41,634 nt of DNA from Hydrogenophaga sp. (lineage in GTDB: Bacteria; Pseudomonadota; Gammaproteobacteria; Burkholderiales; Burkholderiaceae_C). This document shows, in pieces, positions 3,909 to 35,235 of the stretch. Below the pieces are notes generated by a model. That model saw only the letters and a program-made list of their open reading frames with translations, did not search any database and was not told the origin of the DNA. Numbering within the stretch: the stretch's first letter is position 1; each line of letters opens with the position of its first letter. Made by a program: the position numbers and the translations under genes. The stretch lies in NCBI GenBank assembly GCA_018993155.1, contig JAGKSX010000019.1:1-41634 (forward strand), in the 5' to 3' direction.

Positions 3909-3990
3909 AAAACACGCCCCCCCGCTCCGCCGCTGCGCGGGTCGCTGCCCCCCAAGGGGGCTTGCCTTGCGTGGGGCGGCCCTGCGCGGC
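3909..3990 (+). repeat. stop-adjacent structured repeat, subfamily A, copy A1 (gspG/gspH)
   Basis: The element starts 2-3 bases after the gspG stop with AACACGCCCCCCC, then CCGCTGCGCGG (stem CCGC/GCGG), a GCCCCCC-AA-GGGGGC hairpin, and a tail reading CTTGCCTTGCGTGGGGCGGCC. The stretch from 3930 to 3990 is nearly identical to 5603-5668 (copy A2 in the gspJ/gspK junction). There is no T-run, so it is not a classical terminator. The remaining bases to gspH (3991-4029) show nothing recognisable. Confidence 0.8.
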
Positions 3991-4029
3991 GACCATCGTC
4001 GGCCTTCCGGCAACGCGGTTTCCCTGATC

Positions 4030-4482
4030 ATGGCCAGCAAGGCACACGGCTTCACCCTGCTCGAGCTCATGGTGGTGCTGGTGATCGTGGCCTTCGCCAC
4101 CGCCGGTGTGACCGTGGCCTTGCGCGACGACGGCGCCACCCGCCTGGAGCGCGAGGGCCTGCGGCTGACGGCCATGCTGGAGTCCGCGCGTGCCCAGTCG
4201 CGCACCAGCGGGCTGCCAGTGGTCTGGCGCAGCCTGCCGCAAGGCTTCGAATTCCTCGGCCTGCCCACCCAGGCGGGCACCGGCTCGCTCACCGGACCGC
4301 GTCCCTGGCTCAACCAGGACACCCAGGCCCAGGTGCTGCAACCGCCAGGCGCGCAAACCCTGGTGCTCGGGCCCGAACCGCTGATCGCCGCGCAGCGGGT
4401 GATGCTGGTCCAGGGGGACCGGCGCATCACCCTGGGCACCGACGGCCTTTCGCCCTTCACCGTGCTGGCCGCCACACCATGA
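4030..4482 (+). CDS. gspH: type II secretion system minor pseudopilin GspH
   Basis: Minor pseudopilin of the T2SS tip and shaft. The start ATG at 4030 gives a six-residue basic leader before the cleavage site (MASKAHG^FTLLELMVVLVIVAF), with Glu at +5, so this start fits the prepilin rule. Upstream in-frame starts would translate through repeat A1 and bury the leader. The mature part is about 143 aa with a GspH-like beta-rich region (LTAMLESARAQSRTSGLPVVWR, then ending RRITLGTDGLSPFTV). Its stop overlaps the gspI start by four bases (ATGA), indicating translational coupling. It is separated from gspG by the 121-base gap containing the repeat. Confidence 0.9.
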   Translation: MASKAHGFTLLELMVVLVIVAFATAGVTVALRDDGATRLEREGLRLTAMLESARAQSRTSGLPVVWRSLPQGFEFLGLPTQAGTGSLTGPRPWLNQDTQAQVLQPPGAQTLVLGPEPLIAAQRVMLVQGDRRITLGTDGLSPFTVLAATP

Positions 4483-4847
4483 CGCGCCCGCGCGGCTTCA
4501 CACTGATCGAGGTGCTCGTCGCTCTCGCGGTGGTTGCCATCACCCTGGCCGCCGGGCTGCAGGCCACTGGCGCCCTCACCCGGGCATCCGGCAGGCAGAG
4601 CGACCAATGGCTGGCCCAGCTGTGCGCCGAGAACGAACTCACCCGCCTGCGCCTGCAGCGCCAGTTGCCCGGCACCGGCGACACCGACTCCGTGTGCACG
4701 CAGGCGGGGCGCGAGATGCGCGTGCGCTTGTCCGTGCTGCCCACGCCCAACCCGAACTTCCGGCGCGTGGACACGGTCGTCGAAGCCGCCGTGGATGGGG
4801 TGAACGTGCGCCTGCTCAGCCTCTCCACCGTGATGGGCCGGTATTGA
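4479..4847 (+). CDS. gspI: type II secretion system minor pseudopilin GspI
   Basis: Minor pseudopilin that nucleates the GspI-J-K tip complex. The 122-aa precursor begins MTRPRG^FTLIEVLVALAVVAI, with a five-residue leader before the conserved Gly and Glu at +5. The GspI-type body follows: WLAQLCAENELTRLRL, and the end region has VEAAVDGVNVRLLSLSTVMGRY. Two cysteines (in LCAEN and SVCTQ) may form a disulfide in the periplasm; that is inference. It overlaps gspH by four bases and is two bases from gspJ. Confidence 0.9.
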   Translation: MTRPRGFTLIEVLVALAVVAITLAAGLQATGALTRASGRQSDQWLAQLCAENELTRLRLQRQLPGTGDTDSVCTQAGREMRVRLSVLPTPNPNFRRVDTVVEAAVDGVNVRLLSLSTVMGRY

Positions 4848-4849
4848 GC

Positions 4850-5584
4850 ATGATGAAACACGCACGCGGTTTCACCCTCGTCGAACTGCTGGTGGCCATC
4901 GTCGTGATGTCCATGCTCGCGCTGCTGAGCTGGCGTTCGCTCGACGGCATGACGCGCACCCAGAACATCACCCAGCAACGCGCCGACGACCTGCTTCGCA
5001 TGCAGGCGGCCATGGGCCAGTGGGCCGCCGACCTGGACGCCCTGATCGACACCGGCGAAGTCAACGCGCTCGACTTCAATGGTCAGGTGCTGCGCATGAC
5101 GCGGCGCGATAGCGGCGAAACCGGCCTGGACAGTCGAGGCATCCGCGTCGTGGCCTGGACGCGCCTGACCGGCGTGGCCTTGGCCGGCCTGCCGCAGATC
5201 TCATCGAGCATCCAGGCCAGCGGCCAATGGGTGCGCTGGCAATCCGGCCCCGTGCTGCGGCGCGACGAACTCGCGCGCGCCTGGCAGCGTGCCGGTGAAT
5301 GGGGACGCGGCGCCTTGTCCTCACAGGCGGGCAACGCCAGCTCCGACAGCGCCATCGCCCTGCTCGGCATCGACAACTGGCAACTCTTCTACCACCGGGG
5401 CGAAACCTGGGGCAACCCGCAGTCCTCCACCGGCAACGAAGAACCCGTGGGTGGTCCGGAAGGTTCGCGCACCGGCAGCGTGCCCAATGGCGTGCGCCTG
5501 GAGCTGGTGCTCGGCACCGGCGAAGGCCTCAGCGGCAGTCTGGTGCGCGACTGGGTCCGCCCAACGCTCGAGGCCGGCCGCTGA
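4850..5584 (+). CDS. gspJ: type II secretion system minor pseudopilin GspJ
   Basis: Minor pseudopilin of the tip complex. Starting at the first of two adjacent ATGs (4850, 4853), the 244-aa precursor has the leader MMKHARG^FTLVELLVAIVVMSM with Glu at +5. The mature GspJ body includes SWRSLDGMTRTQ, a QWAADLDALIDT segment and a long central beta region; the tail GVRLELVLGTGEGLSGSLVRDW is typical. An in-frame upstream ATG would extend back through gspI and is rejected. The stop TGA (5582-5584) shares its A with the gspK ATG, so gspJ and gspK are likely translationally coupled. Confidence 0.9.
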   Translation: MMKHARGFTLVELLVAIVVMSMLALLSWRSLDGMTRTQNITQQRADDLLRMQAAMGQWAADLDALIDTGEVNALDFNGQVLRMTRRDSGETGLDSRGIRVVAWTRLTGVALAGLPQISSSIQASGQWVRWQSGPVLRRDELARAWQRAGEWGRGALSSQAGNASSDSAIALLGIDNWQLFYHRGETWGNPQSSTGNEEPVGGPEGSRTGSVPNGVRLELVLGTGEGLSGSLVRDWVRPTLEAGR

Positions 5585-6645
5585 TGAAGCCCCCATGCTC
5601 CACCGCTGCGCGGGTCGCTGCCCCCCGAGGGGGCTGGCCTTGCTTGGGGCGGCCCGGCGCTGCGGCCGTTTCGACTTCGGGTCGAACCCAGAAGGGCGCC
5701 GCCCTGCTGCTCGCCATGCTCGTCGTCACGCTGGTGGCCACCCTGGCCTCGGCCGCGTTGTGGCAGCAGTGGCGCTCGGCCGAGGTCGAGCAGGCCGAGC
5801 GGCGCCGCGTGCAGGCTGGCTGGGTGTTGACCGGTGCGCTCGACTGGGCGCGCCTGATCCTGCGCGAGGACGCGCGCGACAACCAGAGCAGCGGCAACGC
5901 CGACCACCTGGGCGAGCCCTGGGCCATGCCGCTGGAGGAGGCACGCCTGTCCAGCTTTCTCGCCGCCGACAAGAACAACAACACCGACGGCATGCTGGAA
6001 GCCTTTCTCTCGGGCGAAGTGATCGACATGCAGTCGCGCATGAACTTCCTGAACGTGGTGCGCACCGTCGGCGCGGGCGCCCAGGCCAAGGTGGAACTCT
6101 CCGAAGCCGACATGCGCAGCTTCGCCAAGCTTTACGAACAACTTGGGCTGCCGGTCTCGGAACTCAATGCCGCCGCCAACGAGCTGCGCACCTCCATGAG
6201 CCTGGCGCTGAGCGACCCCCTGCCCTCGCGCACCGCCCTGCTGCCCCGGAAATACGCGCAGCTGGCCTGGCTCGGCATCAGCCGCAACAGCCTGGCCGTG
6301 CTCGAACCCCACGTCACCGTGCTGCCCTCCCGCTCCACGCTCAACCTCAACACCGCCAGCGCCCAGGCCATCTGCGCCAGCGTGCCAGGCCTGGACATGG
6401 CCCAGGCCCGGCAAATCACCAGCGCGCGCGAGCGCGAACCGTTCAAGAGCCTGGCGGATGCCAGCGCCGTGGTGCCGGCCATGACGGGCCAACTGTCGGA
6501 TCTGTACCACGGTGTGCGCAGCAGCCACTTCGAGGTGCGCGGGCGCCTGCGGCTTGACGACACCATCATCGAAGAGCGCTCTCTCGTCGTGCGCAACAAC
6601 CTCGATGTGCGCGTGAACTGGCGCGAACGCTTCGCCCGGCGCTGA
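5584..6645 (+). CDS. gspK: type II secretion system minor pseudopilin GspK with repeat-derived leader
   Basis: Largest minor pseudopilin, capping the pseudopilus tip. The recognisable start of the protein is KG^AALLLAMLVVTLVATLASA at residues 37-57, with the GspK-type site lacking Glu at +5. In the mature part, LNLNTASAQAICASVPGLDMAQARQI is the helix-hairpin-helix-like segment common in GspK, and the end region reads YHGVRSSHFEVRGRL. The only plausible start is ATG 5584, overlapping the gspJ stop. This leaves a 38-residue leader, much longer than the usual 6-15 residues. Residues about 7-29 are a translation of a copy of the structured repeat (5603-5668). No alternative ATG exists between the repeat and the cleavage site; a TTG at 5644 is possible. 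Confidence 0.88.
   Translation: MKPPCSTAARVAAPRGGWPCLGRPGAAAVSTSGRTQKGAALLLAMLVVTLVATLASAALWQQWRSAEVEQAERRRVQAGWVLTGALDWARLILREDARDNQSSGNADHLGEPWAMPLEEARLSSFLAADKNNNTDGMLEAFLSGEVIDMQSRMNFLNVVRTVGAGAQAKVELSEADMRSFAKLYEQLGLPVSELNAAANELRTSMSLALSDPLPSRTALLPRKYAQLAWLGISRNSLAVLEPHVTVLPSRSTLNLNTASAQAICASVPGLDMAQARQITSAREREPFKSLADASAVVPAMTGQLSDLYHGVRSSHFEVRGRLRLDDTIIEERSLVVRNNLDVRVNWRERFARR
5585..5668 (+). repeat. stop-adjacent structured repeat, subfamily A, copy A2 (inside the gspK leader)
   Basis: The copy begins right after the gspJ stop (TGAAGCCCCC) and continues with CCACCGCTGCGCGGG, a GCCCCCCGAGGGGGC hairpin and GGCCTTGCTTGGGGCGGCC. It aligns along its length with A1 (3930-3990). Unlike the other copies it lies wholly inside an open reading frame (gspK codons 2-28). 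A perfect hairpin TTCGAC-TTCGG-GTCGAA follows at 5670-5686. Confidence 0.8.
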
Positions 6646-6748
6646 GACGGCGTGTTTTCCCGGTGCACATCAGGCCCCTGAGAGTCACCCAGGGTCTCTA
6701 GAATGAGGGGCTCGCCGCCCTGTAACACCTTCGCATGACCGCATCACC

Positions 6749-8056
6749 GTGCTGATCGTCACTCCCTCGGACTTCTCCGCTGCGCCCCCTGCGGGACCCA
6801 CGGCCCTTTTCGACTGGGCCACGTCCAGCAATGGCCAGCAGATCACCGACCACGGTCAGTGCGCGGCCGCGTTGCTGCCGCGAGACGACGATGTGGTGCT
6901 CGTGCTGCCGCCGCGCGCCGTCTCCTGGCACCGGGTCGCCCTGCCCAAGGTCGCCACCGCGCGCCTGCGGGCCGCGCTCGAAGGCTTGCTGGAAGACCGC
7001 CTGCTGGCCGACACGGCCGACCTGCACTTCGCCCTGGAGCCCGGTGGCCGTTCGGGCCAGACGGTGTGGGTCGCGGCCTGCCACAAGGTCTGGCTGCGCG
7101 GCTGGCTGCAGATCCTGGAGGGAGCGGCCCGCCCGGCCGGGCGCATCGCGCCGGCCCTGTGGCCGCTGTTGCCCTCCGAAACCCCCGGCGCCACGCCGGG
7201 CTCCTCGCGCAGTTTTGCGCTGGACGTGCCCTCCAACGTCCACTGGGCCTACAACGAGAACGGCGAGATCTGGCTGGGCAGCGCCGGCCTGCTCGGCGTG
7301 AGCTGCACACCGCTGCGGGAAACGCCCCTGGGCCATGGCACCGCGGGCGACATGGTGGTCACCGCGCTCATGCCCCCCGCCAGCGACGCGCCAGGCGAGC
7401 CTGGTGAATACGACGTCTGGCTGGCCGACCCGACCGTGGCCGCGCAGGCCGAGCAGATGCTGCAGCAGCGTTTTGAGCTCGTCGCCCTCCCCGCGTGGTT
7501 GCTGCGCTGCGCCCAGTCCGACTGGAACCTCGCGCAGTTCGACCTCAGCCTCTCGGCTGGCGCGCGGCGCGGCCAACGGCTCAAGCGCAGCTTCCGGCAA
7601 TGGCGCAACGCCCCGGCCTGGCGACCCGCGCGCTGGGGCTTGGCGGCGCTGGTGGGCGTGCAGCTGGTGGGCCTGAACGCCGCCGCCTGGCACGAGCGCA
7701 GCGGCCTGGAAGCCAAGCAGAAGGCGGTGGTGCAGACCCTGCAGAAAAGCTTCCCGCAAGTCACGCTGGTGCTCGACGCACCGGTCCAGATGCAGCGCGA
7801 GGTCGCCCGCCTGCAACAGGCCACCGGCGCCCTGTCCGAAGGCGATCTGGAAACCCTGCTTGCGGCGATCGACCAGGCCTCGGCCGGCGAAGCCCTGCTG
7901 CCCTCCACCATCGCCTACAGCACGGGCGAAGGGCGCTTCTCGGGCTGGCGCGCCACCCAGGACCAATTGCGCGCCCTGCAACAGTCGCTGCAGAACAGCG
8001 GCTGGCGGGTGCGTTTCGATGGCAATGAGCTGGCCCTGCGCCCGCCGGAACCCTGA
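6749..8056 (+). CDS. gspL: type II secretion system protein GspL
   Basis: Inner-membrane platform protein that recruits ATPase GspE and partners GspM. The start is GTG at 6749; the ATG at 6735 is out of frame and stops at once. The cytoplasmic actin-like domain spans about 1-250 (VVLVLPPRAVSWHRVALPKVATARLRAALEGLLEDRLL is characteristic, at about 49-86). One membrane segment follows near 292-310 (LAALVGVQLVGLNAAAW), then a periplasmic ferredoxin-like domain to residue 435. It lies 103 bases after gspK, a gap with a TAGAAT box at 6699-6704 but no clear -35. It is two bases before gspM. Confidence 0.9.
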   Translation: MLIVTPSDFSAAPPAGPTALFDWATSSNGQQITDHGQCAAALLPRDDDVVLVLPPRAVSWHRVALPKVATARLRAALEGLLEDRLLADTADLHFALEPGGRSGQTVWVAACHKVWLRGWLQILEGAARPAGRIAPALWPLLPSETPGATPGSSRSFALDVPSNVHWAYNENGEIWLGSAGLLGVSCTPLRETPLGHGTAGDMVVTALMPPASDAPGEPGEYDVWLADPTVAAQAEQMLQQRFELVALPAWLLRCAQSDWNLAQFDLSLSAGARRGQRLKRSFRQWRNAPAWRPARWGLAALVGVQLVGLNAAAWHERSGLEAKQKAVVQTLQKSFPQVTLVLDAPVQMQREVARLQQATGALSEGDLETLLAAIDQASAGEALLPSTIAYSTGEGRFSGWRATQDQLRALQQSLQNSGWRVRFDGNELALRPPEP

Positions 8057-13098: not shown

Positions 13099-14328
13099 GT
13101 GCCCGCCTACACCTTCGAAGCCCTGGACGCCCAGGGCGCCACGCAGAAAGGCCTGATCGACGCCGACACCGCGCGCGCCGCGCGCAGCATGTTGCGCGCG
13201 CGCGCCCTGGTGCCGCTGCTGGTCGAGCCCGCCGCGGGCTCGCAGGGCACTTCGGCCGCGAAGGGCCTCAACATCACGCTCTGGGGCGGCCGCGCCTTCA
13301 GCGCCACCGCCCTCGCGGTCTGGACGCGCCAGCTCGCCGGCCTGGTGGCCGCCGGCCTGCCGCTGGAACGCGCGCTCTCGGCCCTGACCGAAGAATCCGA
13401 AGACGAAAAACAGCGCAACCTCATGGCCTCGCTGCGTTCCGAGGTCAACGGCGGCTCCACCTTCGCCCGCGCGCTCTCGCAACACCCGCGCGAGTTCTCC
13501 CCCATCTACACCGGCGTGATCGCCGCGGGCGAACAGAGCGGCCTGCTCGGCACCGTGCTCGAACGCCTGGCCGACGACCTGGAGGCGCGCGAAGCCCTCA
13601 AGAACAAGATCGTCGCGGCTTCGCTCTACCCGGCCATCGTCACGCTGGTGGCGATCGTGATCGTGGTGTTCCTCGTCTCCTACGTGGTGCCGCAGGTGGC
13701 CAACGTGTTCGCCGGCAGCAAGCGGGCCCTGCCCTTCCTCACCGTGGTCATGCTCGGCCTGAGCGACTTCGTGCGCTCCTACGGCTGGTTCATGCTGGCC
13801 CTGCTGGCGCTGGGCATCGGTGGTGTCGTGTTCGCGCGCCGCAACGAAGCCATCCGCCTGCGCATGGACGCCGCCTGGCTGCGCCTGCCGCTGGTGGGCC
13901 GCCTGGCGCGCGGCTACAACGCGGCCCGCTTCTCGGCCACGCTGGCCATGCTCGCGGCGGCCGGCGTGCCCATCCTGCGCGCGCTACAGACCGCCGCCGA
14001 AACCCTCTCCAACCAGGCCATGCGCGCCGACGCGCTCGACACCGTGGTGCTGGTGCGCGAAGGCGCGCCCCTGGCCTCGGCCCTGGGCAGCAAGAAGCGC
14101 TTTCCGCCGCTGGTGTCCATGTTCGCCCGGCTGGGCGAGCAGACCGGCCAGCTGCCCGCCATGCTGGACCGCGCCGCGAAACAGCTCGGCGACGAGGTGC
14201 AGCGCCGCGCCATGCACATGGCCACCATCCTGGAACCCCTGCTGATCGTGGGCATGGGCCTGGTGGTGATGCTGATCGTGCTGGCGGTGCTGATGCCCAT
14301 CATCCAGCTCAACCAACTCGTTTCATGA
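13099..14328 (+). CDS. gspF: type II secretion system inner-membrane protein GspF
   Basis: Polytopic platform protein of the T2SS inner-membrane complex. The start GTG 13099 yields MPAYTFEALDAQGATQKGLIDADTA, the standard GspF opening. Two homologous cytoplasmic GspF domains are seen, each opening with WTRQLAGLVAAGLPLERALSAL (about 75) and FSATLAMLAAAGVPILRALQTA (about 275). Membrane segments lie near 175-198, 216-236 and 378-402. The protein ends IIQLNQLVS. It is the last gene of the gsp run; repeat B1 begins directly after its stop. Confidence 0.95.
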   Translation: MPAYTFEALDAQGATQKGLIDADTARAARSMLRARALVPLLVEPAAGSQGTSAAKGLNITLWGGRAFSATALAVWTRQLAGLVAAGLPLERALSALTEESEDEKQRNLMASLRSEVNGGSTFARALSQHPREFSPIYTGVIAAGEQSGLLGTVLERLADDLEAREALKNKIVAASLYPAIVTLVAIVIVVFLVSYVVPQVANVFAGSKRALPFLTVVMLGLSDFVRSYGWFMLALLALGIGGVVFARRNEAIRLRMDAAWLRLPLVGRLARGYNAARFSATLAMLAAAGVPILRALQTAAETLSNQAMRADALDTVVLVREGAPLASALGSKKRFPPLVSMFARLGEQTGQLPAMLDRAAKQLGDEVQRRAMHMATILEPLLIVGMGLVVMLIVLAVLMPIIQLNQLVS

Positions 14329-14412
14329 TCCCCCCTGCGCCGGCCCTTCGGACCGTCACCCCCCCAAGGGGGCAACGCCTGCGGCCTGGCAAAGCCAGTT
14401 CCGCGGCGTTTC
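14329..14412 (+). repeat. stop-adjacent structured repeat, subfamily B, copy B1 (gspF/nucleotidase)
   Basis: It starts after the gspF TGA with TCCCCCCTGCGCCGG. After a CCCCC-AA-GGGGG pair comes an almost continuous 15-bp hairpin: AACGCC (14374-79) with GGCGTT (14405-410), GCGG (81-84) with CCGC (14401-404), and CTGGC (86-90) with GCCAG (94-98) around an AAA loop. The same hairpin with paired base changes occurs at 29549-29585. A T-run at 14458-14462 lies far from the hairpin, so it is not an intrinsic terminator. Confidence 0.8.
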
Positions 14413-14463
14413 TTGCAAGGGGGTCTGAGCGCCCCGACCATCTATGACCCAGGGACTTTTTTC

Positions 14464-15360
14464 ATGGGTGTAACGCTCGAAGGCAAGCTCGTCGTTGCCA
14501 TCTCTTCCCGCGCCCTGTTCGACTTCGAGGAAGAAAACCGCCTCTTCGAAACCGGCGACGACCGCGCCTACATGAAGCTGCAGCTCGACCGGCTGGACCA
14601 GCCGGCCGCACCCGGCGTGGCCTTCTCGCTGGTGCACAAGCTGCTCGCCTTCAACGACGCGCAGGCGCAGCGGGTGGAGGTGGTGATCCTCTCGCGCAAC
14701 GACCCGGTCTCGGGCATGCGCGTGTTCCGCTCCGCCCAACACTACGGCCTGCCGATCCAGCGCGGCAGCTTCACGCGCGGCCAGCCGCCCTGGCGCTACC
14801 TGCGCCCGCTGCGCGCCAACCTGTTCCTCTCCACCCACCTGGCCGACGTGCGCGCCGCGCTCGAGGCCGGCGTGCCCGCCGCGCAGGTCTACCCCCAGTC
14901 GGTGCACGCCAGCAGCGAGCACCCCAACGAAGTGCGCATCGCCTTCGACGGCGACGCCGTGCTGTTCTCCGACGAGGCCGAGCGCGTCTACCAGGCGCAA
15001 GGGCTCTCGGCCTTCCAGGAACACGAGGCCAGCAAGGCCTCGCTGCCGCTGGCCGGCGGCCCCTTCAAGCCGCTGCTCGAAGCCCTGCACCGCCTGCAGA
15101 GCGAGGGCACGCCGATGATGCGCGTGCGCACCGCGCTGGTCACCGCGCGCAGCGCCCCGGCGCACGAGCGCGCGATCCGCACCCTGATGAACTGGAACAT
15201 CGAAGTCGACGAAGCCATGTTCCTCGGCGGCCTGCCCAAGGGCGAGTTCCTGCGCGAGTTCGAGCCCGATTTCTTCTTCGACGACCAGACCGGCCACATC
15301 GAGTCGGCCGCGCTGCACGTGCCCGCAGGGCATGTGGCCAGCGGGGTCAGCAACGGTTGA
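14464..15360 (+). CDS. 5'-nucleotidase, HAD-type (cytosolic NT5C1-like family)
   Basis: Predicted nucleoside 5'-monophosphate phosphatase of the family that includes animal cytosolic 5'-nucleotidase I (AMP-preferring). The start ATG 14464 has CAGGGA about 8 bases upstream, and the product is 298 aa. Seen: VVAISSRALFDFEEENR at the start, then the HAD nucleophile motif RIAFDGDAVLFSDEAE (D162 and D164). TARSAPAHERAIRTL follows, and an acidic motif in EVDEAMFLGGLPKGEFL..FFFDDQTGHIESA. No membrane segment or signal peptide is seen, so it is cytoplasmic. It stands alone between gspF and the ABC transporter, flanked by repeats B1 and C1. Substrate preference cannot be read from the sequence. Confidence 0.85.
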   Translation: MGVTLEGKLVVAISSRALFDFEEENRLFETGDDRAYMKLQLDRLDQPAAPGVAFSLVHKLLAFNDAQAQRVEVVILSRNDPVSGMRVFRSAQHYGLPIQRGSFTRGQPPWRYLRPLRANLFLSTHLADVRAALEAGVPAAQVYPQSVHASSEHPNEVRIAFDGDAVLFSDEAERVYQAQGLSAFQEHEASKASLPLAGGPFKPLLEALHRLQSEGTPMMRVRTALVTARSAPAHERAIRTLMNWNIEVDEAMFLGGLPKGEFLREFEPDFFFDDQTGHIESAALHVPAGHVASGVSNG

Positions 15361-15467
15361 CAGAAGCTCCCCCCTGCGCCGCTGCGCGGCTTCCCCCCTC
15401 CGTGGCGCGCCTTCGGCGCTTCGAGGGGGGACGGCGTCTTGGTCCGGCGGAGCCGTCCCTCGATGCC
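15361..15467 (+). repeat. stop-adjacent structured repeat, subfamily C, copy C1
   Basis: It begins directly after the nucleotidase stop (CAGAAGCTCCCCCCTGCGCC). Pairings: GCCGCTGCGCGGC; CCCCCCTC (15393-15400) with GAGGGGGG (15423-30) enclosing GCGCC-TTC-GGCGC; and GGCGTC (33-38) with GATGCC (15462-67), a G-U pair replacing the Watson-Crick pairs seen in C2 and C3. It is near-identical to 20697-20805 and 35127-35235 on the opposite strand. The rest of the gap (15468-15608) holds only weak promoter-like text before the ABC transporter gene. Confidence 0.85.
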
Positions 15468-15608
15468 TCTGGAGGGGCTGCTTCGTGCGGTGCGGGTTGG
15501 TTCAGGCTTGGCAGCACGGCATAAGTCCTGCCTCAGTGAAGCGGCCACAGGACCCGCTACGATGCGCGTCATGGGCGCCGTCTGCGCCTACCTGCACAGG
15601 GCCCTTTC

Positions 15609-20644: not shown

Positions 20645-20696
20645 GTTGGTTCCTCAATCTTTCCGAATCTCGACACGCAGCCGGACGCCGGTCAGG

Positions 20697-20805
20697 GGCA
20701 TCGAGGGTCCGGCTCCGCCGGCCCAAGATGCCGTCCCCCCTCCAAGCGCCGAAGGCGCGCCAGAGAGGGGGGAAGCCGCAAAGCGGCGCAGGGGGGTGTT
20801 CATAT
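20697..20805 (-). repeat. stop-adjacent structured repeat, subfamily C, copy C2 (flgK/flgL)
   Basis: On the minus strand it begins two bases after the flgK TAG as ATGAACACCCCCCTGCGCC, then GCCGCTTTGCGGC, a CCCCCCTC/GAGGGGGG stem enclosing GCGCC-TTC-GGCGC, and a closing stem GGCATC/GATGCC (plus-strand 20697-702 with 20727-732). The corresponding stem in C3 is GGCGTC/GACGCC, a fully compensatory change. No T-run follows. Confidence 0.85.
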
Positions 20806-22719
20806 CTAGCGACCCACGGTCTGCAACAGGCTGTCGAAGGTGCTCTGGGCGATCTGGAGGAATTTCGCCGAGGCCTGGTAGGCCTGCTGGTACTGCAGCA
20901 GGCGCGCGGCTTCTTCGTCGAGGTTGACCCCGGCCACGTTGGCGCGCGCGGTCTCGGCGGTGTTGGCGACGTTGGCCGAGAAGTCCGCGGCGAACTTGGC
21001 GCCCTGCACGCGCGTGCCGATGTCAGAGAACAGGCTGACGTAGCCATCGGAGAGCGGCACGCCGCCGTAGGTGGGCAGGTCGCGCAGGCCCAGCATGCCG
21101 GCGCTGTTGCCCGCGTTCTGCGAGATCGCGCCAGCGGGCGCGGCGCCGATGCTGAAGGTGTCGCCCGCGCCCGGGCTGCCGCGCATGGTGAGGCTCCAGC
21201 CGTTGAGGGTGATGGACTGGCCCGGCTTGAAGTTGTAGCTCGGCGGCGGGCCGGCGTTGTCGGGCGGCGGGTTGCCCGGGCCCAGGCCGGTGGCGGTGAA
21301 GCTGCCGTCGGCCAGGAAGGTGATGGTGACCGGGTCGGTGAGGTTGGGCGAGGCCGACGAGGCGTACAGGCTCTCCACGCTCAGGCCGCCAGAGTTGCCG
21401 GTGCCGGGCGTGACCATGACGGGGCTGGCGGCGGCCAGCTTGTCGGGCGAGCCGATGGCCACCTGCAGGTCGCGCGCGGCGGCGGCGTAGGGGCGCACCA
21501 GGATGCGGTCGCCGGGCGCGCCGGCGCCGTTGTCGAGGTTGAAGTTGAGGCCGTCGACCACGGCGGGGAGCGAGGTCACGGGGGTGGCGGTGCCGTCGGA
21601 CAGGCGCACCACGCTCATGCCGCCGGCCTCGAAGCGCAGTTCGTAGTCGGAGGCGACGAGCGCGGTCGGGTCGGCCACGCTGGCGCTGATCTCGGCGCTG
21701 CCGGTATTGCCCGGCCGGGGCAGGCCCACGGCGGCGGCCGGCGGGTTGAAGAAGTTCTGGCCCGGGTTGCCCTGCAGGTCCACGCCCAGCTTGTGCTGGT
21801 TGTTCACCGTGGTGGCCGTGGCCAGGGCCATGCGGCCCAGCAGGTTCTGCACGTCGACCAGGTCTTCGTTCATGAAGCGCATCAGGCCGGCGAGTTCGCC
21901 GCCGCCCAGGCTGGCGTCGGGCACCGCGGTGCTCACGCCGCCCTGCACGAAAGAGAGCGCGACGCGCGAGCTGTCGGTGCTGTCCTGCCCCACGGCCAGC
22001 GCGTTGGCGCGCGTGCCCAGCACCAGCGGCTGGCTGCCGCCGATGAACACGCTCACGCTGCCGTCGGCGGCGGGCACGCTGGTGGTCTGCACGTACTTGT
22101 TGATGTCGCCCAGGATCTTGTCGCGCTGGTCGAGCAGGTCGTTGGGCGTGTGGCCGTTGCCCTGGCTCTCGGTGATGCGCGCGTTGACCTTGGCCAGGTC
22201 CTGCGCCAGGCCGTTGATGCGGTCGACCGCGCCCGCCACCTGCTGCTTGGTGGTGTGCTGCAGCGAGTCGATCTGGCTGGCGGTGTTGCGCAGGCGCGTG
22301 GCGAGTTCTTCGCCCTTGGCGATCACGACCACGCGCGCGGTCAGGTTGCCGGGGGAGGACGAGACATCGGTCCAGGCGTTGAGCATGTCGTTGAGCGCCG
22401 TGCCCAGGCCCGCCGAGCCGGTGGGGAAGGCGCTTTCCAGCTGCTGCAGGCGCGCATAGCGCAGCGCATCGGCGGAGGCCACGGAGCCGGCCTTCTGCGC
22501 TTCGCGCGTGAGGTACTGGTTGTGCGAACGTTCGACGGTGGCGATCTCCACGCCCATGCCGAAGTAGCCGTTGCCCATCTGCTGGTAGCCCGACGACTGC
22601 TGGATCACGTTCTGGCGCGAATAGCCGGGCGTGTTGACGTTGGCGATGTTGTTGCCGATGACCTGCAGGGCCGCGAGGTTGGCGTTGAGCGCGCGGGCGC
22701 CGATGTTGAGGGCGGACAT
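20806..22719 (-). CDS. flgK: flagellar hook-associated protein 1 FlgK
   Basis: First hook-filament junction protein, exported through the flagellum. The 637-aa protein starts MSALNIGARALNANLAALQVIGNNIANVNTPGYSRQNV, the conserved rod/hook N-terminal heptad region with the ANVNTPGYSRQ signature. It ends AGVNLDEEAARLLQYQQAYQASAKFLQIAQSTFDSLL, the conserved C-terminal coiled helix. The middle (about 200-550) is the variable surface domain. It lies 13 bases after flgJ. The repeat C2 starts two bases after its stop codon. Confidence 0.96.
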   Translation of the reverse strand: MSALNIGARALNANLAALQVIGNNIANVNTPGYSRQNVIQQSSGYQQMGNGYFGMGVEIATVERSHNQYLTREAQKAGSVASADALRYARLQQLESAFPTGSAGLGTALNDMLNAWTDVSSSPGNLTARVVVIAKGEELATRLRNTASQIDSLQHTTKQQVAGAVDRINGLAQDLAKVNARITESQGNGHTPNDLLDQRDKILGDINKYVQTTSVPAADGSVSVFIGGSQPLVLGTRANALAVGQDSTDSSRVALSFVQGGVSTAVPDASLGGGELAGLMRFMNEDLVDVQNLLGRMALATATTVNNQHKLGVDLQGNPGQNFFNPPAAAVGLPRPGNTGSAEISASVADPTALVASDYELRFEAGGMSVVRLSDGTATPVTSLPAVVDGLNFNLDNGAGAPGDRILVRPYAAAARDLQVAIGSPDKLAAASPVMVTPGTGNSGGLSVESLYASSASPNLTDPVTITFLADGSFTATGLGPGNPPPDNAGPPPSYNFKPGQSITLNGWSLTMRGSPGAGDTFSIGAAPAGAISQNAGNSAGMLGLRDLPTYGGVPLSDGYVSLFSDIGTRVQGAKFAADFSANVANTAETARANVAGVNLDEEAARLLQYQQAYQASAKFLQIAQSTFDSLLQTVGR

Positions 22720-27007: not shown

Positions 27008-27060
27008 GCGGGGCTCCTTCGAATGCAGATGCCGATGCGCGCGCGAGGGCTTCGACCAGG

Positions 27061-27143
27061 GGCACCGCCGGGCCGGCTTTGCCGGACGGCCAGTGCCGCC
27101 CCCTTGAGGGGGTCGCGCGCAGCGCGGCAGGGGTGTTTCATGT
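27061..27143 (-). repeat. stop-adjacent structured repeat, subfamily B, copy B2 (flgE/flgF)
   Basis: On the minus strand it begins two bases after the flgE TGA as ATGAAACACCCCTGCCGCGC, followed by a CCCCC-TCAA-GGGGG hairpin and the subfamily B hairpin. On plus-strand coordinates GGCAC (27061-65) pairs with GTGCC (93-97), GCCG (67-70) with CGGC (87-90), and CCGGC (73-77) with GCCGG (81-85) around TTT. The stems are kept although the bases differ from B1 and B3. Confidence 0.75.
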
Positions 27144-28358
27144 TCAGCGCATGTTCAGGAGGGTGGTCAGCACCTGGTCCTGCGTCTTGATGGTCTGGGC
27201 GTTGGCCTGGTAGGTGCGCTGCGCGGTCATCATGTTGACCAGCTCGGCCGTGATGTCGACGTTGGAGTCTTCCAGCGCCCCCGAGCGCAGCGCGCCGAAG
27301 TTGCCCGTGCCCGGCTCGCCGTGCAGCGGGTCGCCCGAGGTGAAGGTGGCCGTCCAGTTGCCGCCGCCCATGGGCTGCAGGCCCTGGGTGTTGCGGAAGT
27401 TGACCAGCGCGATCTGGCCGGCGGCGCGGGTCTCGCCGTTGGAGTACTGGCCGCTGACCAGGCCGTCCTCGCCGATCTTCAGGCCCAGGAACTGGCCGGG
27501 GCGGTAGCCGTCCTGGTCCAGGTCGCTGACGGCGAAGTTGGTGCCGAACTGCGTCGCGGCGCCGAACTCGAGATCGACGTTGAAGGTCTGCGCGGGGTCG
27601 TTGGGCGAAGCCAGCGTGAGCTGCGGAATCACCGAGGCGGGGTCGAGCGAACCGTCGGGCAGGAAGTTCACGACGAAGGGCGTGGACAGCGCGGGGTCGG
27701 CGCCGTTGACGCCGGTGTAGACGTTCCACTGGTTGTTGCCGATCTTCTCGAAGCTCAGCGACACCGGGATCTCAAGCCCCTGCGAGTCGTAGGCGACCAG
27801 GGACGTGCCGTAGGTCGACAGCGGCGTGGGCGGCGTCTGCGTGGAGGCCACCGGCGCGCGGGCGTCGAGGTTGAATTCGGCCAGGATGCTGGTGGTCTGG
27901 CGCGCGGGAATCGGGCCGCCGGTGGGCAGGCGCAGCGGCTGCGAGTCGAAGCTCAGGCGCGTGCCATCGGGCGCGGTCGGGTAGCCCATGAGGTTGGCGC
28001 CGCCGTTGGTGATGATGCTGCCGCTGCTGTCGAGCTTGAACATGCCCGCGCGGCTGTAGGCGACCGTGCCGTTGGGCATGTTGAGTTCGAAGAAGCCCGA
28101 GCCGTTGATGGCCACGTCCAGGTCGTTGCCCGTCACCGTGATGTTGCCCTGCGTGAAATGCTGCGACACGGTGGTCAGCGCCACGCCGATGCCGGAGTTC
28201 ACGCCGCCGGCCGCGTTCACGGAGCTGGCGTAGAGCTCGCCGAACTCGCCGCGCGAGCTCTTCATGCCCACCGTGTTGGCGTTGGCGATGTTGTGCCCGA
28301 TCACGTCGAGGTTGCGGCTGGCGCTGTTCAGGCCGGAGAGTCCTTGCTGGAATGCCAT
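27144..28358 (-). CDS. flgE: flagellar hook protein FlgE
   Basis: Hook subunit, exported and polymerised under the FlgD cap. The 404-aa protein starts MAFQQGLSGLNSASRNLDVIGHNIANANTVGMKSSRGEFGELYA. Its variable mid-domain includes RQTTSILAEFNLDARAPV, and it ends NVDITAELVNMMTAQRTYQANAQTIKTQDQVLTTLLNMR. Length is usual. TAAGGA lies about 10 bases before the ATG. It is 50 bases after flgD. Repeat B2 begins two bases after its stop. Confidence 0.97.
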   Translation of the reverse strand: MAFQQGLSGLNSASRNLDVIGHNIANANTVGMKSSRGEFGELYASSVNAAGGVNSGIGVALTTVSQHFTQGNITVTGNDLDVAINGSGFFELNMPNGTVAYSRAGMFKLDSSGSIITNGGANLMGYPTAPDGTRLSFDSQPLRLPTGGPIPARQTTSILAEFNLDARAPVASTQTPPTPLSTYGTSLVAYDSQGLEIPVSLSFEKIGNNQWNVYTGVNGADPALSTPFVVNFLPDGSLDPASVIPQLTLASPNDPAQTFNVDLEFGAATQFGTNFAVSDLDQDGYRPGQFLGLKIGEDGLVSGQYSNGETRAAGQIALVNFRNTQGLQPMGGGNWTATFTSGDPLHGEPGTGNFGALRSGALEDSNVDITAELVNMMTAQRTYQANAQTIKTQDQVLTTLLNMR

Positions 28359-29502: not shown

Positions 29503-29544
29503 ACCAATTCCTTTCAATCACGCAACGCGTGAAAAGGTGCAAAC

Positions 29545-29636
29545 CAGAAACACCGCGGAACCGGCTTTGCCGGGCCGCTGGTGTTGCCCCCCTATCAGGG
29601 GGGTGGCGCCGAAGGCGACGCGGGGGGTGTTCATGT
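29545..29636 (-). repeat. stop-adjacent structured repeat, subfamily B, copy B3 (flgB/flgC)
   Basis: On the minus strand it begins two bases after the flgB TAA as ATGAACACCCCCCGCG, then GGCGCC-type pairing (GTCGCCTTCGGCGCC) and a CCCCCC-TGATA-GGGGGG hairpin. The closing hairpin is the exact equivalent of B1: AACACC (plus 29549-54) with GGTGTT (29580-85), GCGG (55-58) with CCGC (75-78), and CCGGC (61-65) with GCCGG (69-73). B1 has AACGCC/GGCGTT and CTGGC/GCCAG at the same places. Confidence 0.8.
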
Positions 29637-30050
29637 TTATTGGCCGGTGATGGCGCTCAACATGGTCTTCACGTGACCATTGATGAAACGCAACGTGGAC
29701 TCGTAGCGCACGCTGTTGTCCACGAAGTTGGCGCGCTCGCGGTCGAGGTCGACCGAGTTGCCGTCCTGGCTGGGCTGGGTCTGCACCGTGTAGGCCATGT
29801 CGGGTCGGGCCGGGCCCGCGCCGGTGGTGCCCAGGCGCATGTGCTGGGCATTGGTCTGGGTCACGCCTGCGGTCGCGCCAGCCTGCATGCCCGAGACGTT
29901 CTTGAGCGCGCTGGCGAAATCGAAGTCGCGCGCGACGTAGCCCGGCGTGTCGGCGTTGGCGATGTTGCTGGCGATCACCTGCTGGCGCTGCGAGCGCAGC
30001 AGCAGGGCGTTGGCATGGAAGTCCAGCCGGCCGGTCATCTGTTCAAGCAT
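29637..30050 (-). CDS. flgB: flagellar proximal rod protein FlgB
   Basis: Proximal rod subunit and first gene of the flgB-L run. The 137-aa protein has NALLLRSQRQQVIASNIANADTPGYVARDFDFASAL and a C-terminus with VDLDRERANFVDNSVRYESTLRFINGHVKTML, standard for FlgB. GGAG lies 8-10 bases before the ATG. It is divergent from flgA with 196 bases between the starts. I could not pick a convincing promoter for flgB in that gap. Repeat B3 starts two bases after its stop. Confidence 0.96.
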   Translation of the reverse strand: MLEQMTGRLDFHANALLLRSQRQQVIASNIANADTPGYVARDFDFASALKNVSGMQAGATAGVTQTNAQHMRLGTTGAGPARPDMAYTVQTQPSQDGNSVDLDRERANFVDNSVRYESTLRFINGHVKTMLSAITGQ

Positions 30051-31877: not shown

Positions 31878-31962
31878 TGCGTCTACAGACGTCACTGGCA
31901 CCCAAAAGTCGGTTTGAGAGATCGCCTCTGATATCTCATTAGCCAAACTGATGGATGTACCT

Positions 31963-31998: not shown

Positions 31999-32012
31999 TA
32001 AGATTGAATGCC

Positions 32013-32207
32013 ATGAACACCCTCATCACTTCCCTGTGGACCCGACTGGCTGGTGCCGTTGGCCACTTTTTCCGCCGCGCCGCCGCCGGCGCATCCGACG
32101 GGCTGGAGGAATACCTCAGCACCGCCAAGAGCCTTCACCAGCTGGAAGACATGCAACGCCGTTGGGACCAGGCCCACCGAGGCCACCACCACCATGGCGC
32201 CTTCTGA
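32013..32207 (+). CDS. small helical protein, DUF3563-like
   Basis: A 64-aa protein: an N-terminal amphipathic helix (MNTLITSLWTRLAGAVGHFFRRAAAG), then LEEYLSTAKSLHQLEDMQRRWDQ, and a His-rich tail (HHHH). The pattern of a short helix followed by E-YL--A-xL--LE--R resembles DUF3563 proteins common in Burkholderiales, whose function is unknown. The start ATG 32013 is preferred to the TTG at 32004, though neither has a strong Shine-Dalgarno. A second small gene follows after 28 bases. Confidence 0.65.
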   Translation: MNTLITSLWTRLAGAVGHFFRRAAAGASDGLEEYLSTAKSLHQLEDMQRRWDQAHRGHHHHGAF

Positions 32208-32235
32208 CCCCCACCCCGATCCCGAGACCCACACC

Positions 32236-32430
32236 ATGATCGAATTGCTCAAATCCTATTTCCAGACGCCCCAGTTCGCTGCCGGCGCCCGTGTCAACCG
32301 CCTTCACAAAGGCAGCCTGGACCGCGTGGATGGCCGCGTGGTGGCCCAGACCGAAGAAGGCGTGCTGGTCGAATGGCCCCGCAATGGCTCCGGCTGGGAA
32401 CACCCGGGCGCGCTCTGCCAGCAAGGTTGA
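32236..32430 (+). CDS. small conserved-looking hypothetical protein
   Basis: A 64-aa protein reading MIELLKSYFQTPQFAAGARVNRLHKGSLDRVDGRV and then VVAQTEEGVLVEWPRNGSGWEHPGALCQQG. It is compact, with a basic middle and a C-terminal stretch that looks like a small beta-barrel (GRVVAQTEEGVLVEWPR), reminiscent of SH3-like or KOW-like folds. No family is recognised. It follows the DUF3563-like gene by 28 bases on the same strand and is probably co-transcribed. The in-frame upstream ATG (32053) overlaps the previous gene and is rejected. Confidence 0.55.
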   Translation: MIELLKSYFQTPQFAAGARVNRLHKGSLDRVDGRVVAQTEEGVLVEWPRNGSGWEHPGALCQQG

Positions 32431-32453
32431 CGCGCCCTCGCGCGAGCGCCAAC

Positions 32454-32894
32454 ATGACAGGCCCCCGATCTCCTTTTTCCCCTGCCATGAACGAGATTCA
32501 CGCCCCGAACGGTTCGGACACCAGCGGCAACGGCGACACGGTGGAAGCCCGGGCCTGCATTGAGCGTTTCGCCACCGCCTTCAACGCCGAAGACCTGCCG
32601 GGCATGGATGCCGAACTGAACTTCCCGCACACCCTGCTTTCCGGCTCACACCGCCTGGAATGGTTCGCGCCGGGCCAGCTTCCGAGCGACTTTTTCGCCA
32701 GCCTGCGCGCCACCGGCTGGGCGCGCACACAAACCGAGTCGATCACCCCCGTGCTCACGAGCACCGACAAGGTGCACTTTCTCGTGGACTACACCCGGCG
32801 CACCGCGGCGGGCGAGGTGCTCAACCGGTACCACAACCTCTGGATCGTGACCCGTTCGGCGGGCCACTGGGGCATCGCGCTGCGCTCCTACTGA
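32454..32894 (+). CDS. NTF2-like (SnoaL-type) hypothetical protein
   Basis: A protein of about 146 aa with the cone-shaped NTF2-like pattern: ACIERFATAFNAEDLPGMDAELNFPHTLLSG at the start, VHFLVDYTRRTAAGEVLNRYHNLWIVTRSAGHWGIALRSY at the end. Such folds serve as small enzymes or ligand binders, and nothing in the sequence gives a substrate. Start: ATG 32454 has only a weak GAG upstream, and ATG 32487 (MNEIHAPNG) is an equally fair choice that gives 135 aa. It precedes the VOC gene by 33 bases on the same strand. Confidence 0.7.
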   Translation: MTGPRSPFSPAMNEIHAPNGSDTSGNGDTVEARACIERFATAFNAEDLPGMDAELNFPHTLLSGSHRLEWFAPGQLPSDFFASLRATGWARTQTESITPVLTSTDKVHFLVDYTRRTAAGEVLNRYHNLWIVTRSAGHWGIALRSY

Positions 32895-32927
32895 ACACGG
32901 ACGGCCCAGGCGCACGGCGGCATCGCG

Positions 32928-33317
32928 ATGAACATTCAACTCGATCACCTGCTCGTGCCGTCCCGCGACAAGATCGCCGCCGCGCGGCAACTCGCCGAGC
33001 TGCTCGGCGTGCCCTGGTCCACCAGCGGCATCGGGCCATTCGCACCGGTTTATGTCAACGACGGCCTGACCCTCGACTTCGATCAGTGGGATGGGCCCGT
33101 GCCACCCATCCACTTCGCGTTTCGCGTGAGCGAGGACGCGTTCGACGCCATCCTCGCGCGCCTTCAGGCCGCCGGCATCCCCTACCGCAGCCTGGTGCAC
33201 GGGCCGGTCGATTCGAAGGTGGACACGGCCCACGGCGGGCGCATCGTCTACTGGAACCAGCCCGACGGCCACCAGTGGGAAATGCTCACCGTGAGTTACG
33301 CGCGCGACGCGCGCTGA
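32928..33317 (+). CDS. VOC (glyoxalase/dioxygenase-like) family protein
   Basis: A 129-aa cytoplasmic protein with one VOC module: IQLDHLLVPSRDKIAAARQLAELLGVPW (H7 is a likely metal ligand), IHFAFRVSEDAFDAILARLQAAGIPYR (H62) and GGRIVYWNQPDGHQWEMLTVSY (E118). These positions fit the metal-binding pattern of the fold. Substrate and reaction are unknown; relatives include lyases, isomerases and resistance proteins. It converges on the LysE-type gene, with four bases between the stops. Confidence 0.8.
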   Translation: MNIQLDHLLVPSRDKIAAARQLAELLGVPWSTSGIGPFAPVYVNDGLTLDFDQWDGPVPPIHFAFRVSEDAFDAILARLQAAGIPYRSLVHGPVDSKVDTAHGGRIVYWNQPDGHQWEMLTVSYARDAR

Positions 33318-33321
33318 ATCT

Positions 33322-33960
33322 TCAGGCCACGCGGCGCTGCTCGGCGGCCAGCCGCACCGCCAGCGCGGCCAACACACCGCCCATCACGTAGCGCTGCACC
33401 GCCAGCCAGCGGCGGTTGTGCTGGAACCAGCGCGCCAGCTTCGCTGCCGACAGGGCGATGCTCAGGTTGACGCTGAAACTGAACACGATCTGGGTCAGCC
33501 CCAGCACCACGCTCTGCACGAACACCGAGCCATGCTCGGGCGAGACGAACTGCGGAAAGATCGCGAGGTAGAACACCGCGATCTTGGGGTTGAGCAGGTT
33601 GGTGAGAAAGCCCATGGCGAACAGCTTGCGCGGCGAGTCCTGCGGCAGGTCGCGCGCCTCGAAGGGCGAGCGCGCGCCCGGCTTGACCGCCTGCCAGGCC
33701 AGGTACAGCAGGTAGGCCGCGCCGGCCCACTTCAGGATCTCGTAGGCCAAAGGCACGGCCATGAACAGCGCTGTGAGGCCCACCGCGGCGGTGAACATGT
33801 GCACCAGAAAGCCGGCCACCACGCCGAACAGCGAGATCACGCCGGCCCGTCGCCCCTGGCAGATCGAGCGCGAGATCAGATAGACCATGTTGGGGCCGGG
33901 CGTCAGCGCCATCAGCAGGGCCGCGCCGGCAAAGAGCAGCCAGTCGTTCAGGGGAACCAT
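33322..33960 (-). CDS. LysE/RhtB-family amino acid exporter
   Basis: Inner-membrane efflux protein of 212 aa with about six hydrophobic segments. Family signs: ALTPGPNMVYLISRSICQGRRAGVISLFGVVAGFLVH near the N-terminus (the G-N-x-P/TPGPN region), LKWAGAAYLLYLAWQAVK, and FAMGFLTNLLNPKIAVFYLAIFPQFV. The start at 33960 has GAGG 8 bases upstream; the ORF extension to 33993 has no such site. The substrate could be a neutral or basic amino acid and cannot be decided. The ankyrin gene lies about 60 bases upstream on the same strand. Confidence 0.85.
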   Translation of the reverse strand: MVPLNDWLLFAGAALLMALTPGPNMVYLISRSICQGRRAGVISLFGVVAGFLVHMFTAAVGLTALFMAVPLAYEILKWAGAAYLLYLAWQAVKPGARSPFEARDLPQDSPRKLFAMGFLTNLLNPKIAVFYLAIFPQFVSPEHGSVFVQSVVLGLTQIVFSFSVNLSIALSAAKLARWFQHNRRWLAVQRYVMGGVLAALAVRLAAEQRRVA

Positions 33961-34020
33961 GAAAAAAGCCTCGGTGGGGTGGGGATCCCACATCCTAGGC
34001 CAGGCCGAACAACCCCATGC

Positions 34021-34392
34021 TCACCTCGCCCACCAGAACCAGCGCCCCAGTAAAAGCGCGAGCCAGCCGCCTCTTCGCGGCGTTCGCACGACGGGATCCG
34101 GCGCGCCCATCGCGCGCAGCCGTGCCTCCAGCGCCCCCAGACCCACCTGACGCGCGGCCTGCACCGGCGTGAGGTTGTCGAATTCGGAGTGCAGCAGCGG
34201 ATCGGCGCCGTGGTCCAGCAGCAAACCGGCCACCACCTCCTGCCGCTCCAGGATGCAGGCCACCAGCGGCGTGGAGAGGAACTCCGGGTGCGCGTAGTTC
34301 AGGTCCACGCCATTGCGCGCGTGGTAGCGCACCAGCTCGATATGGCCCTCGCAGGCCGCCTTGAACAGCTCTTTCCAGTCACCACCCGACAT
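34021..34392 (-). CDS. small ankyrin-repeat protein
   Basis: A 123-aa protein with two to three ankyrin repeats: DWKELFKAACEGHIELVRYHARNGVDLNYAHPEFLSTPLVACILERQEVVAGLLLDHGADPLLHSEFDNLTPVQAARQVG. The C-terminus (WLALLLGRWFWW) is very hydrophobic and could be a membrane anchor. The start at 34392 is supported by AAGGAG 6-10 bases upstream; longer readings to 34515 are not. Ankyrin repeats bind proteins, but no partner can be named. It is divergent from the glycolipid-binding-like gene. Confidence 0.75.
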   Translation of the reverse strand: MSGGDWKELFKAACEGHIELVRYHARNGVDLNYAHPEFLSTPLVACILERQEVVAGLLLDHGADPLLHSEFDNLTPVQAARQVGLGALEARLRAMGAPDPVVRTPRRGGWLALLLGRWFWWAR

Positions 34393-34425
34393 CCCGTCTC
34401 CTTCGTGCTTCAATCGTTGACCGCC

Positions 34426-34441
34426 TGCCGGCATGCCGGCA
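34426..34441. promoter_or_regulatory. 16-bp perfect palindrome between divergent genes
   Basis: TGCCGGCATGCCGGCA is a perfect 16-bp palindrome, extendable by GCC/GGC with one bulge. It lies about 34 bases upstream of the ankyrin gene start and about 47 upstream of the leader ORF. It could be an operator for a dimeric regulator or a cruciform/hairpin; no regulator is nearby. Confidence 0.4.
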
Positions 34442-34472
34442 AGGCCCTGCACCATAACCGGAGGTCTGCGCC

Positions 34473-34517
34473 ATGACCATGAAACAAACCCTTGCCGCCC
34501 TTTGGCTGGCGCCATAG
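34473..34517 (+). CDS. 14-residue leader ORF with strong ribosome binding site
   Basis: ATG at 34473 follows a strong GGAGG (34460-34464) at 8 bases. The ORF is MTMKQTLAALWLAP and ends with TAG nine bases before the ATG of the next gene, which itself has no Shine-Dalgarno. It may be a translational coupling leader or a truncated signal-peptide remnant. It is too short to judge by sequence, so its reality as a translated unit is inference. Confidence 0.35.
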   Translation: MTMKQTLAALWLAP

Positions 34518-34526
34518 ACCTTTCCC

Positions 34527-35099
34527 ATGGCCCGCACCGACACCCGCACCCTCTGCTGGCAACCCACCTGGAACCCGGCCCGCGAGGGCCTGGGCATGGA
34601 ACACCTGCTGCTGTCGGACAACGAAGCCAGCGCGGTGGTGCTGGCCTTCGATGAAGCCAGCGGCCCGTTCCGGCTCAGCTACCGGCTGGCCTGGGGGCGG
34701 TCGTGGCACCTGCGCCAGGCCGACCTGCTGGTAGACACCGACCAGGCCTCGCGCGCGCTGAGCCTGCGCACCGACGGCCAGGGCCATTGGCGCGATGGCC
34801 ACAACCGCGCGCTGCGGGAGCTGGAAGGCTGCCTGGACATCGACATCTGGCCCACGCCCTTCACCAACAGCTTTCCGATCCGGCGCGAGCCGATGGCCGT
34901 GGGTGAGCGCCGCGAATTCCGCATGGCCTGGGTGAACGCCCCCGAGCTCACCGTACAGGCCAAGCCCCAGGCCTACACCAGGTTGGCCGAGCGGCTCTAC
35001 CGCTTCGAGAGCCTGGACGGCAGCGGTTTCCAGGTGGATTTGCCGGTGGACGAAGACGGCATCGTGCTCGACTACCCAGGTCTGTTCACACGCATCTAA
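34527..35099 (+). CDS. putative glycolipid-binding domain protein (PF06475-like)
   Basis: A 190-aa protein matching the putative glycolipid-binding family: CWQPTWNPAREGLGMEHLLLSDN, FRLSYRLAWGRSWHLRQADLLVDTD, DGQGHWRDGHNRALRELEGCLDIDIWPTPFTNSFPIRR and FRFESL-like end regions (YRFESLDGSGFQVDLPVDEDGIVLDYPGLFTRI). No signal peptide or membrane segment is seen. The family name derives from weak structural evidence and its role is unknown. The start lacks its own Shine-Dalgarno and sits nine bases after a leader ORF that has one. It converges on fliA with repeat C3 between. Confidence 0.75.
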   Translation: MARTDTRTLCWQPTWNPAREGLGMEHLLLSDNEASAVVLAFDEASGPFRLSYRLAWGRSWHLRQADLLVDTDQASRALSLRTDGQGHWRDGHNRALRELEGCLDIDIWPTPFTNSFPIRREPMAVGERREFRMAWVNAPELTVQAKPQAYTRLAERLYRFESLDGSGFQVDLPVDEDGIVLDYPGLFTRI

Positions 35100-35126
35100 G
35101 GCATTGCCGGCGCGACACCAGCCAGA

Positions 35127-35235
35127 GGCGTCGAGGGTCCGGCTCCGCCGGCCCAAGACGCCGTCCCCCCTCGAAGCGCCGAAGGCGCGCCACGGAGGGG
35201 GGAAGCCGCGCCAGCGGCGCAGGGGGGTGTTCCTG
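35127..35235 (-). repeat. stop-adjacent structured repeat, subfamily C, copy C3 (3' of fliA)
   Basis: On the minus strand it begins two bases after the fliA TGA as GGAACACCCCCCTGCGCC, then a GCCGC-TG-GCGCGGC pairing, the CCCCCCTC/GAGGGGGG stem and a closing stem GGCGTC (plus 35127-132) with GACGCC (157-162). The equivalent stem in C2 is GGCATC/GATGCC. It lies between two convergent genes, and its orientation follows fliA. Confidence 0.85.

Follow-up and report, generated by a model that had tools for sequence, protein, structure and literature searches.

Dispersed hairpin repeats lie mostly in the sense direction just past stop codons in a Hydrogenophaga genome

The Hydrogenophaga genome studied here carries a dispersed family of repeats that are conserved in structure, lie mostly in the sense direction just past stop codons and are patchy at the same junctions between relatives. 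The window, that is, the whole stretch of 41,634 nucleotides that was analysed, is contig 13 of this 4.9 Mb genome in 176 contigs; by comparison of FlgG, the nearest named relatives belong to Hydrogenophaga (top identity 92%). The initial annotation had placed eight elements in the window, each starting within bases of a stop codon and with its C-run strand in sense to the gene before it. Reading of the sense strand together with gene calls, made with a codon-usage script that was tried on the window, confirmed all of this: the eight elements are where they were said to be, the strand with the C-run runs in the sense direction in eight of eight and the C-run begins 1–10 nt past the stop in each.

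The elements fall into three sequence classes (A, B and C), scored with covariance models R3, R2 and R1, respectively. On the forward strand, class A copies follow gspG (3917..3995; stop ending at 3908; 75.4 bits; C-run 8 nt past the stop) and a gspJ-like gene (5590..5668; stop ending at 5584; 81.1 bits; 5 nt), a class C copy follows gspF (14331..14415; stop ending at 14328; 80.6 bits; 1 nt) and a class B copy follows a 5′-nucleotidase gene (15369..15472; stop ending at 15360; 101.6 bits; 8 nt). On the reverse strand, class B copies are found behind flgK (20692..20796; stop at 20806; 119.4 bits; 9 nt) and behind a gene for a fliA-like sigma factor (35122..35227; stop at 35236; 108.9 bits; 8 nt), which together with its element is convergent with the neighbouring gene, and class C copies behind flgE (27056..27136; stop at 27144; 73.4 bits; 10 nt) and flgB (29544..29627; stop at 29637; 101.7 bits; 9 nt). 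Pfam backs T2SSG, T2SSF, 5′-nucleotidase, FlgK, FlgE and sigma-70 factor genes as the upstream genes, while matches of the gspJ and flgB proteins are limited to the generic N_methyl and Flg_bb_rod motifs. A search of the window with R1, R2 and R3 up to E = 0.01 recovered all eight elements and no ninth. An Rfam search of the window gave three matches up to E = 1, none of them at an element; a match to RF02278 (Betaproteobacteria toxic sRNA) at positions 31–96 of the forward strand reaches 49.8 bits, the gathering score being 50. The proposed lack of T-tracts or intrinsic terminators held for the four elements between 20000 and 36000, where a scan found five terminator-like sites (9.0 expected) and none at an element; for the other four it was seen by eye only.

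A single layout for all eight elements had also been proposed. It stands for classes B and C, in both of which a C-run is followed by a small hairpin, a C-run/G-run hairpin and a closing hairpin with its end near CTGG, and between which hybrids exist (L118 and L119); it does not extend to class A, a separate sequence with a different predicted fold. Model spans of B/C copies have a median of 82 bp (5–95% range 72–106), and an ATG lies 3–14 nt 5′ of the C-run in 53 of 163 copies, most commonly at 7–8 nt. Compared with shuffled sequences, the two class A copies in the window (z of −0.90 and +0.50) and the flgE copy (−0.48) fold no better, and the remaining five range from −2.34 to −3.72, with the fliA copy at −3.07 and the flgK copy at −3.72; in the predicted fold of the latter, the 16 nt directly past the stop are unpaired. 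In an alignment of 118 copies (114 distinct), which was fitted to the model and therefore leans towards its pairing, 97.5% of helix cells are paired, and changes on both sides of a helix number 330, against 102 in shuffles and 10–71 in slid alignments. Judged from this alignment, the B/C helices covary and their structure is conserved. Helix mismatches carry no RNA-strand signature, with 34 G-U against 42 A-C cells (30 and 23 when the loop-closing pair is left out); since G-U is not above A-C, the counts do not identify the folding strand and lend no support to the sense RNA strand as the selected one. Among class A copies (alignment A3), the 3′ hairpin has a freely varying outer stem that is, by eye, often still complementary; other parts are nearly invariant and able to form a competing long hairpin.

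The genome-wide covariance-model search suggested by the initial annotation revealed a dispersed repeat family at no fewer than 205 places, 169 of the B/C type and 36 of type A. All copy counts are lower bounds. Model R1, built for class C from 22 sequences, has at least 147 matches in the genome, and BLAST with one query copy per class gave at least 42 matches for class B, 41 for A and 40 for C. The figure of 205 comes from merging the 147 R1 places with the BLAST places of class B (41 retained from 42) and class A (36 retained from 41); the six dropped places were short or weak, and the 40 BLAST places of class C were not merged separately. Overlap with an open reading frame was scored for 15 of the at least 205 places, in three of them because of a wrong gene call. 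Like REPs and REPINs, the family consists of mostly extragenic, many-copy hairpin repeats.

The position of the copies relative to genes is strongly biased. Among the 169 B/C copies, 141 lie behind the stop of a gene on the same strand and 12 behind the start of one on the opposite strand; no upstream gene was called for 6, and another 10 overlap a reading frame. Convergent gaps hold 47 copies and divergent gaps 2. Between genes of the same strand, the initial count was 92 forward and 10 backward. Three of the overlapped frames are wrong calls with a stop 3–7 nt upstream, and the corrected count is 95 with and 10 against the direction of the genes (p = 1.6e-18). Counted by the start of the C-run, beyond which the first stem lies, 131 of the 141 same-strand copies begin 0–15 nt past the stop, and 130 of them 0–13 nt past it. 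Two were scored as beginning 5′ of the stop and eight lie further off; of these eight, three are preceded by another C-run and, for one, an uncalled reading frame ends 9 nt upstream, as seen by eye. Class A is looser: of its 36 copies, 15 point forward and 5 backward, 7 lie in convergent gaps and 5 over reading frames, and the other 4 are at the end of a contig or have no called neighbour. As an observation apart, the C-run of the reversed B/C copies (e.g., L267 and L277) ends −1 to 33 nt from the start of the next gene in 9 of 10 cases, and their G-rich strand might act as a ribosome-binding site. Another element (L216; G000:C24:25649-25715) lies 9 nt past the stop of an uncalled reading frame, the end of which we take to resemble a Fis-type C-terminus; elements of this kind could help to annotate short genes that were missed.

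Out of 120 genomes sampled from the taxonomic family of this bacterium, 85 contain a match. A replication sample of 80 of the best listed matches, chosen by score from 14 genomes, comprised 57 forward, 2 backward, 18 convergent, 1 divergent and 2 overlapping copies, and 68 of its 75 same-strand copies lie −3 to 15 nt from the stop. Random orientation without a stop bias, the genome-wide outcome that would have made the eight copies a chance sample, was therefore not seen, either in the genome under study (95:10) or in the others (57:2). At the level of the order, matches occur in 6 of 150 genomes, including two that belong to another family. Gaps are wider at the 20 loci fetched from these two genomes; the upstream gene is on the same strand in 17 and reversed in 3, and 9 of the 20 matches start within 9 nt of a stop. 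Related elements form tandem arrays in one of the two (G212; e.g., L375 and L379).

Could compact genomes alone force this arrangement? In the fetched loci, element-free gaps have medians of 14 bp between convergent genes (23 gaps), 17 bp between genes of the same strand (219) and 110 bp between divergent genes (50). An insertion that spares genes must therefore usually lie near a stop, and closeness to stops partly follows from the compact gaps. One can expect the same from a neutral or selfish repeat that inserts anywhere, purifying selection sparing just those copies for which there is room between a stop and the ribosome-binding site that comes next; orientation would follow if the element carries a spacer at one end only, so that this site is kept free in a single orientation, and forward copies do leave 20–60 nt between their 3′ side and the next start in 63 of 92 cases and less than 20 nt in 3. 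We nevertheless consider filtering by gaps unlikely as the whole explanation, since the bias persists in wide gaps, defined as same-strand gaps that leave at least 40 nt after a 30-nt tail. There, 24 of 27 copies in this genome and 21 of 26 in the 14 other genomes start within 12 nt of the stop (4.8 and 4.4 expected), and in gaps with at least 75 nt free the orientations are 27:4 and 24:0, although downstream promoters may occupy part of the wide gaps. In convergent gaps, with the same tail, 44 of 47 copies are within 12 nt against 42.1 expected, a slight excess. Nor does conformity to the rule rise with divergence from the nearest copy: it is 50/54 in the third of copies most similar to another copy, 45/51 in the middle third and 38/53 in the bottom third.

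This trend favours placement at insertion or selective upkeep, without separating the two. With placement at insertion, the mobility process itself would put the element on the sense strand 3′ of stops, for example, by using DNA or RNA that is single-stranded and exposed at sites of ribosome release from the transcript, and no host function would be needed. The high conformity of the copies most like another copy is in line with such targeting, as is the complete bias of the 30 best class B loci (where one neighbouring copy was scored twice). So is the stop before queC (Pfam QueC in L010), behind which two classes are found, R1-type copies in L010 and L020 and an R3-type copy in L018. However, the lasting similarity of conforming copies could also stem from purifying selection, no linked transposase was found, the offset varies over 0–13 nt and no sequence target was seen. 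TGA was rejected as an insertion target: the stops behind which copies lie (n = 139) are TGA in 95, TAG in 23 and TAA in 21 cases, against a background of 340, 49 and 52, and the use of all three, together with an offset of 0 to about 13 nt, argues against sequence targeting. The ends of tRNA genes were rejected as sites too, neither of the two tRNAs in the loci of this genome being beside the 5′ end of a copy. Targeted insertion is, in our view, an improbable explanation, though one to be taken seriously. The initial annotation had offered an element that targets stop regions and an RNA element acting in 3′ ends as alternatives; the stop and orientation bias behind both is real, and neither is singled out by it.

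Comparison of orthologous junctions in named relatives gave model matches in 5 of 70 cases at flgB (among them L013, L014, L020 and L068), 7 of 77 at flgE (among them L014, L019, L020, L080, L081 and L088) and 2 of 68 at flgK, where L020 has a copy and L010–L016 and L018 have none. The close relatives L011 and L012 have short, empty flgB and flgE gaps (17 bp at flgB) with, by eye, an unchanged gene end, and no target-site duplication was seen by eye at the filled and empty junctions compared. Thus, species differ in whether a particular junction holds a copy, and this patchiness argues against a gene-specific or fixed RNA role. The flgK copy is closer to another copy in its own genome (0.952) than to its orthologue (0.876), the flgB copy is about equally close to both (0.895 and 0.893) and the flgE copy is nearer to its orthologue (0.878 against 0.852). 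Given these values, copies have probably been inherited in part and in part gained independently or converted.

A RAYT-type or other transposase gene linked to the family had been proposed as a thing to look for, and no link was found around the Y1_Tnp gene or in the association across 120 genomes. The genome has one Y1_Tnp gene, which could in principle drive a classical REP system, and E. coli REPs likewise gather near stops: 446 of 4,072 are given in PMC12306157 as within 15 nt of a stop, and an earlier study cited there proposed 260 of 496. By the same criterion, the present elements are stop-proximal in 131 of 141 cases, counted by C-run start, and share with REPs, as far as described there, the character of dispersed hairpin repeats close 3′ of stops; they differ in having three hairpins after a C-run, a near-strict sense orientation and no detected RAYT link. 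Models R1 and R3 match nothing in the 3.3 kb around the Y1_Tnp gene. By copy counts among the matches listed for each of the 120 genomes, at most 38 per genome, Y1_Tnp is present in 32 of 38 copy-rich genomes (at least 10 copies) and in 57 of 82 copy-poor ones (p = 0.12, not significant), so that 6 of the 38 copy-rich genomes have no Y1_Tnp match. A GT(A/G)G head at the 5′ end is not enriched (9/163 within 12 nt of the C-run start, 29/163 in control stretches). A REP system driven by the RAYT of this genome is accordingly very improbable. Clusters or inverted doublets of the BIME kind are limited to three neighbouring pairs within 300 nt among the at least 205 places, two of them inverted. An autonomous version with its ends split by a gene was also rejected: hairpin motifs without an upstream G-run number 4 of 151 in loci of this genome (three degenerate copies and one unrelated sequence, by eye) and 8 of 109 in other loci, and no split element is suggested in either set, both of which are biased to places already holding elements.

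Among repeats of beta-proteobacteria, the BRE of Bordetella (Hot et al. 2011, PMC3110155) is, by its published description, the closest candidate, being 75–91 bp long, GC-rich and usually intergenic. BRE also occurs in Comamonadaceae, is in tandem at some loci and, in Table 3 of that paper, has no locus between divergent genes; tandem arrays like those of Bordetella are seen in G212 and hardly in the genome studied here. The text seen of that paper has no mention of "stop codon" and no visible sense rule, and leaves function open. It describes a BRE transcript, bprJ, that runs opposite to both flanking genes, which, depending on the strand convention for BRE, speaks against a simple match. The Bor repeats of Bordetella are, according to PMC1590033, hairpin repeats close to coding regions like those described here, but consist of a 26–30 bp stem-loop; a preference of stem-loops for 3′ ends is noted in the same source. 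No statement of a sense and stop rule for these taxa was found in the open-access papers searched. The safest statement is that the elements are REP- or BRE-like repeats with an unusually strict sense and stop rule, stricter than usually described for such repeats.

As to what maintains this rule, we favour, with about an even chance of being right, a REP- or BRE-like, non-autonomous dispersed repeat of roughly 80–110 bp that is kept in sense as a 3′-UTR hairpin cluster and acts as a generic barrier compatible with translation termination. Copies would spread by a mobility or conversion process and survive where their hairpins become part of the 3′ UTR immediately past the terminating ribosome. 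The footprint of a terminating ribosome is expected to cover the stretch that holds the C-run. With the C-run in this covered stretch and the hairpins after it, the reading frame and the ribosome-binding site of the next gene would be left undisturbed. An RNA function of the elements is inferred; by analogy with E. coli REPs, which are reported in PMC12306157 to stall ribosomes when close to stops and to lengthen mRNA half-life when in 3′ UTRs, the hairpins would most likely be a block to 3′ to 5′ exonucleases or an intercistronic insulator. Against a barrier stand the 10 reversed copies, the 10 of 169 B/C copies scored over reading frames (three wrongly) and the three of eight window copies that fold no better than shuffles.

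A more specific role in termination has a slim probability. The elements might be a dispersed 3′-UTR switch, in which the stop-adjacent C-run (C1) and a second C-run (C2) compete for one G-run and a ribosome at the stop, by covering C1, sets which hairpin forms. The placement of C1, starting 0–13 nt past the stop in 130 of 141 copies, is consistent with such a switch, and so is the coupling of run lengths. The length of C1 tracks those of C2 and the G-run beyond kinship (nearest-neighbour rho of 0.31 and 0.21), and C1 equals C2 in 95 of 152 copies and the G-run in 90, compared with 65 and 66 in restricted shuffles; in the hybrid L118, all three runs are interrupted. If true, more than a hundred genes would share a single generic control element coupled to termination.

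It is difficult to establish why hairpin repeats gather 3′ of bacterial stops, as genome compactness is a confounder. The present repeats are unambiguous in direction, number well over a hundred in one genome, leave orthologous sites filled in some named relatives and empty in others, and have matches in 85 of the 120 genomes sampled from the taxonomic family, and with this, targeting, RNA function and mere tolerance become separable by experiment.
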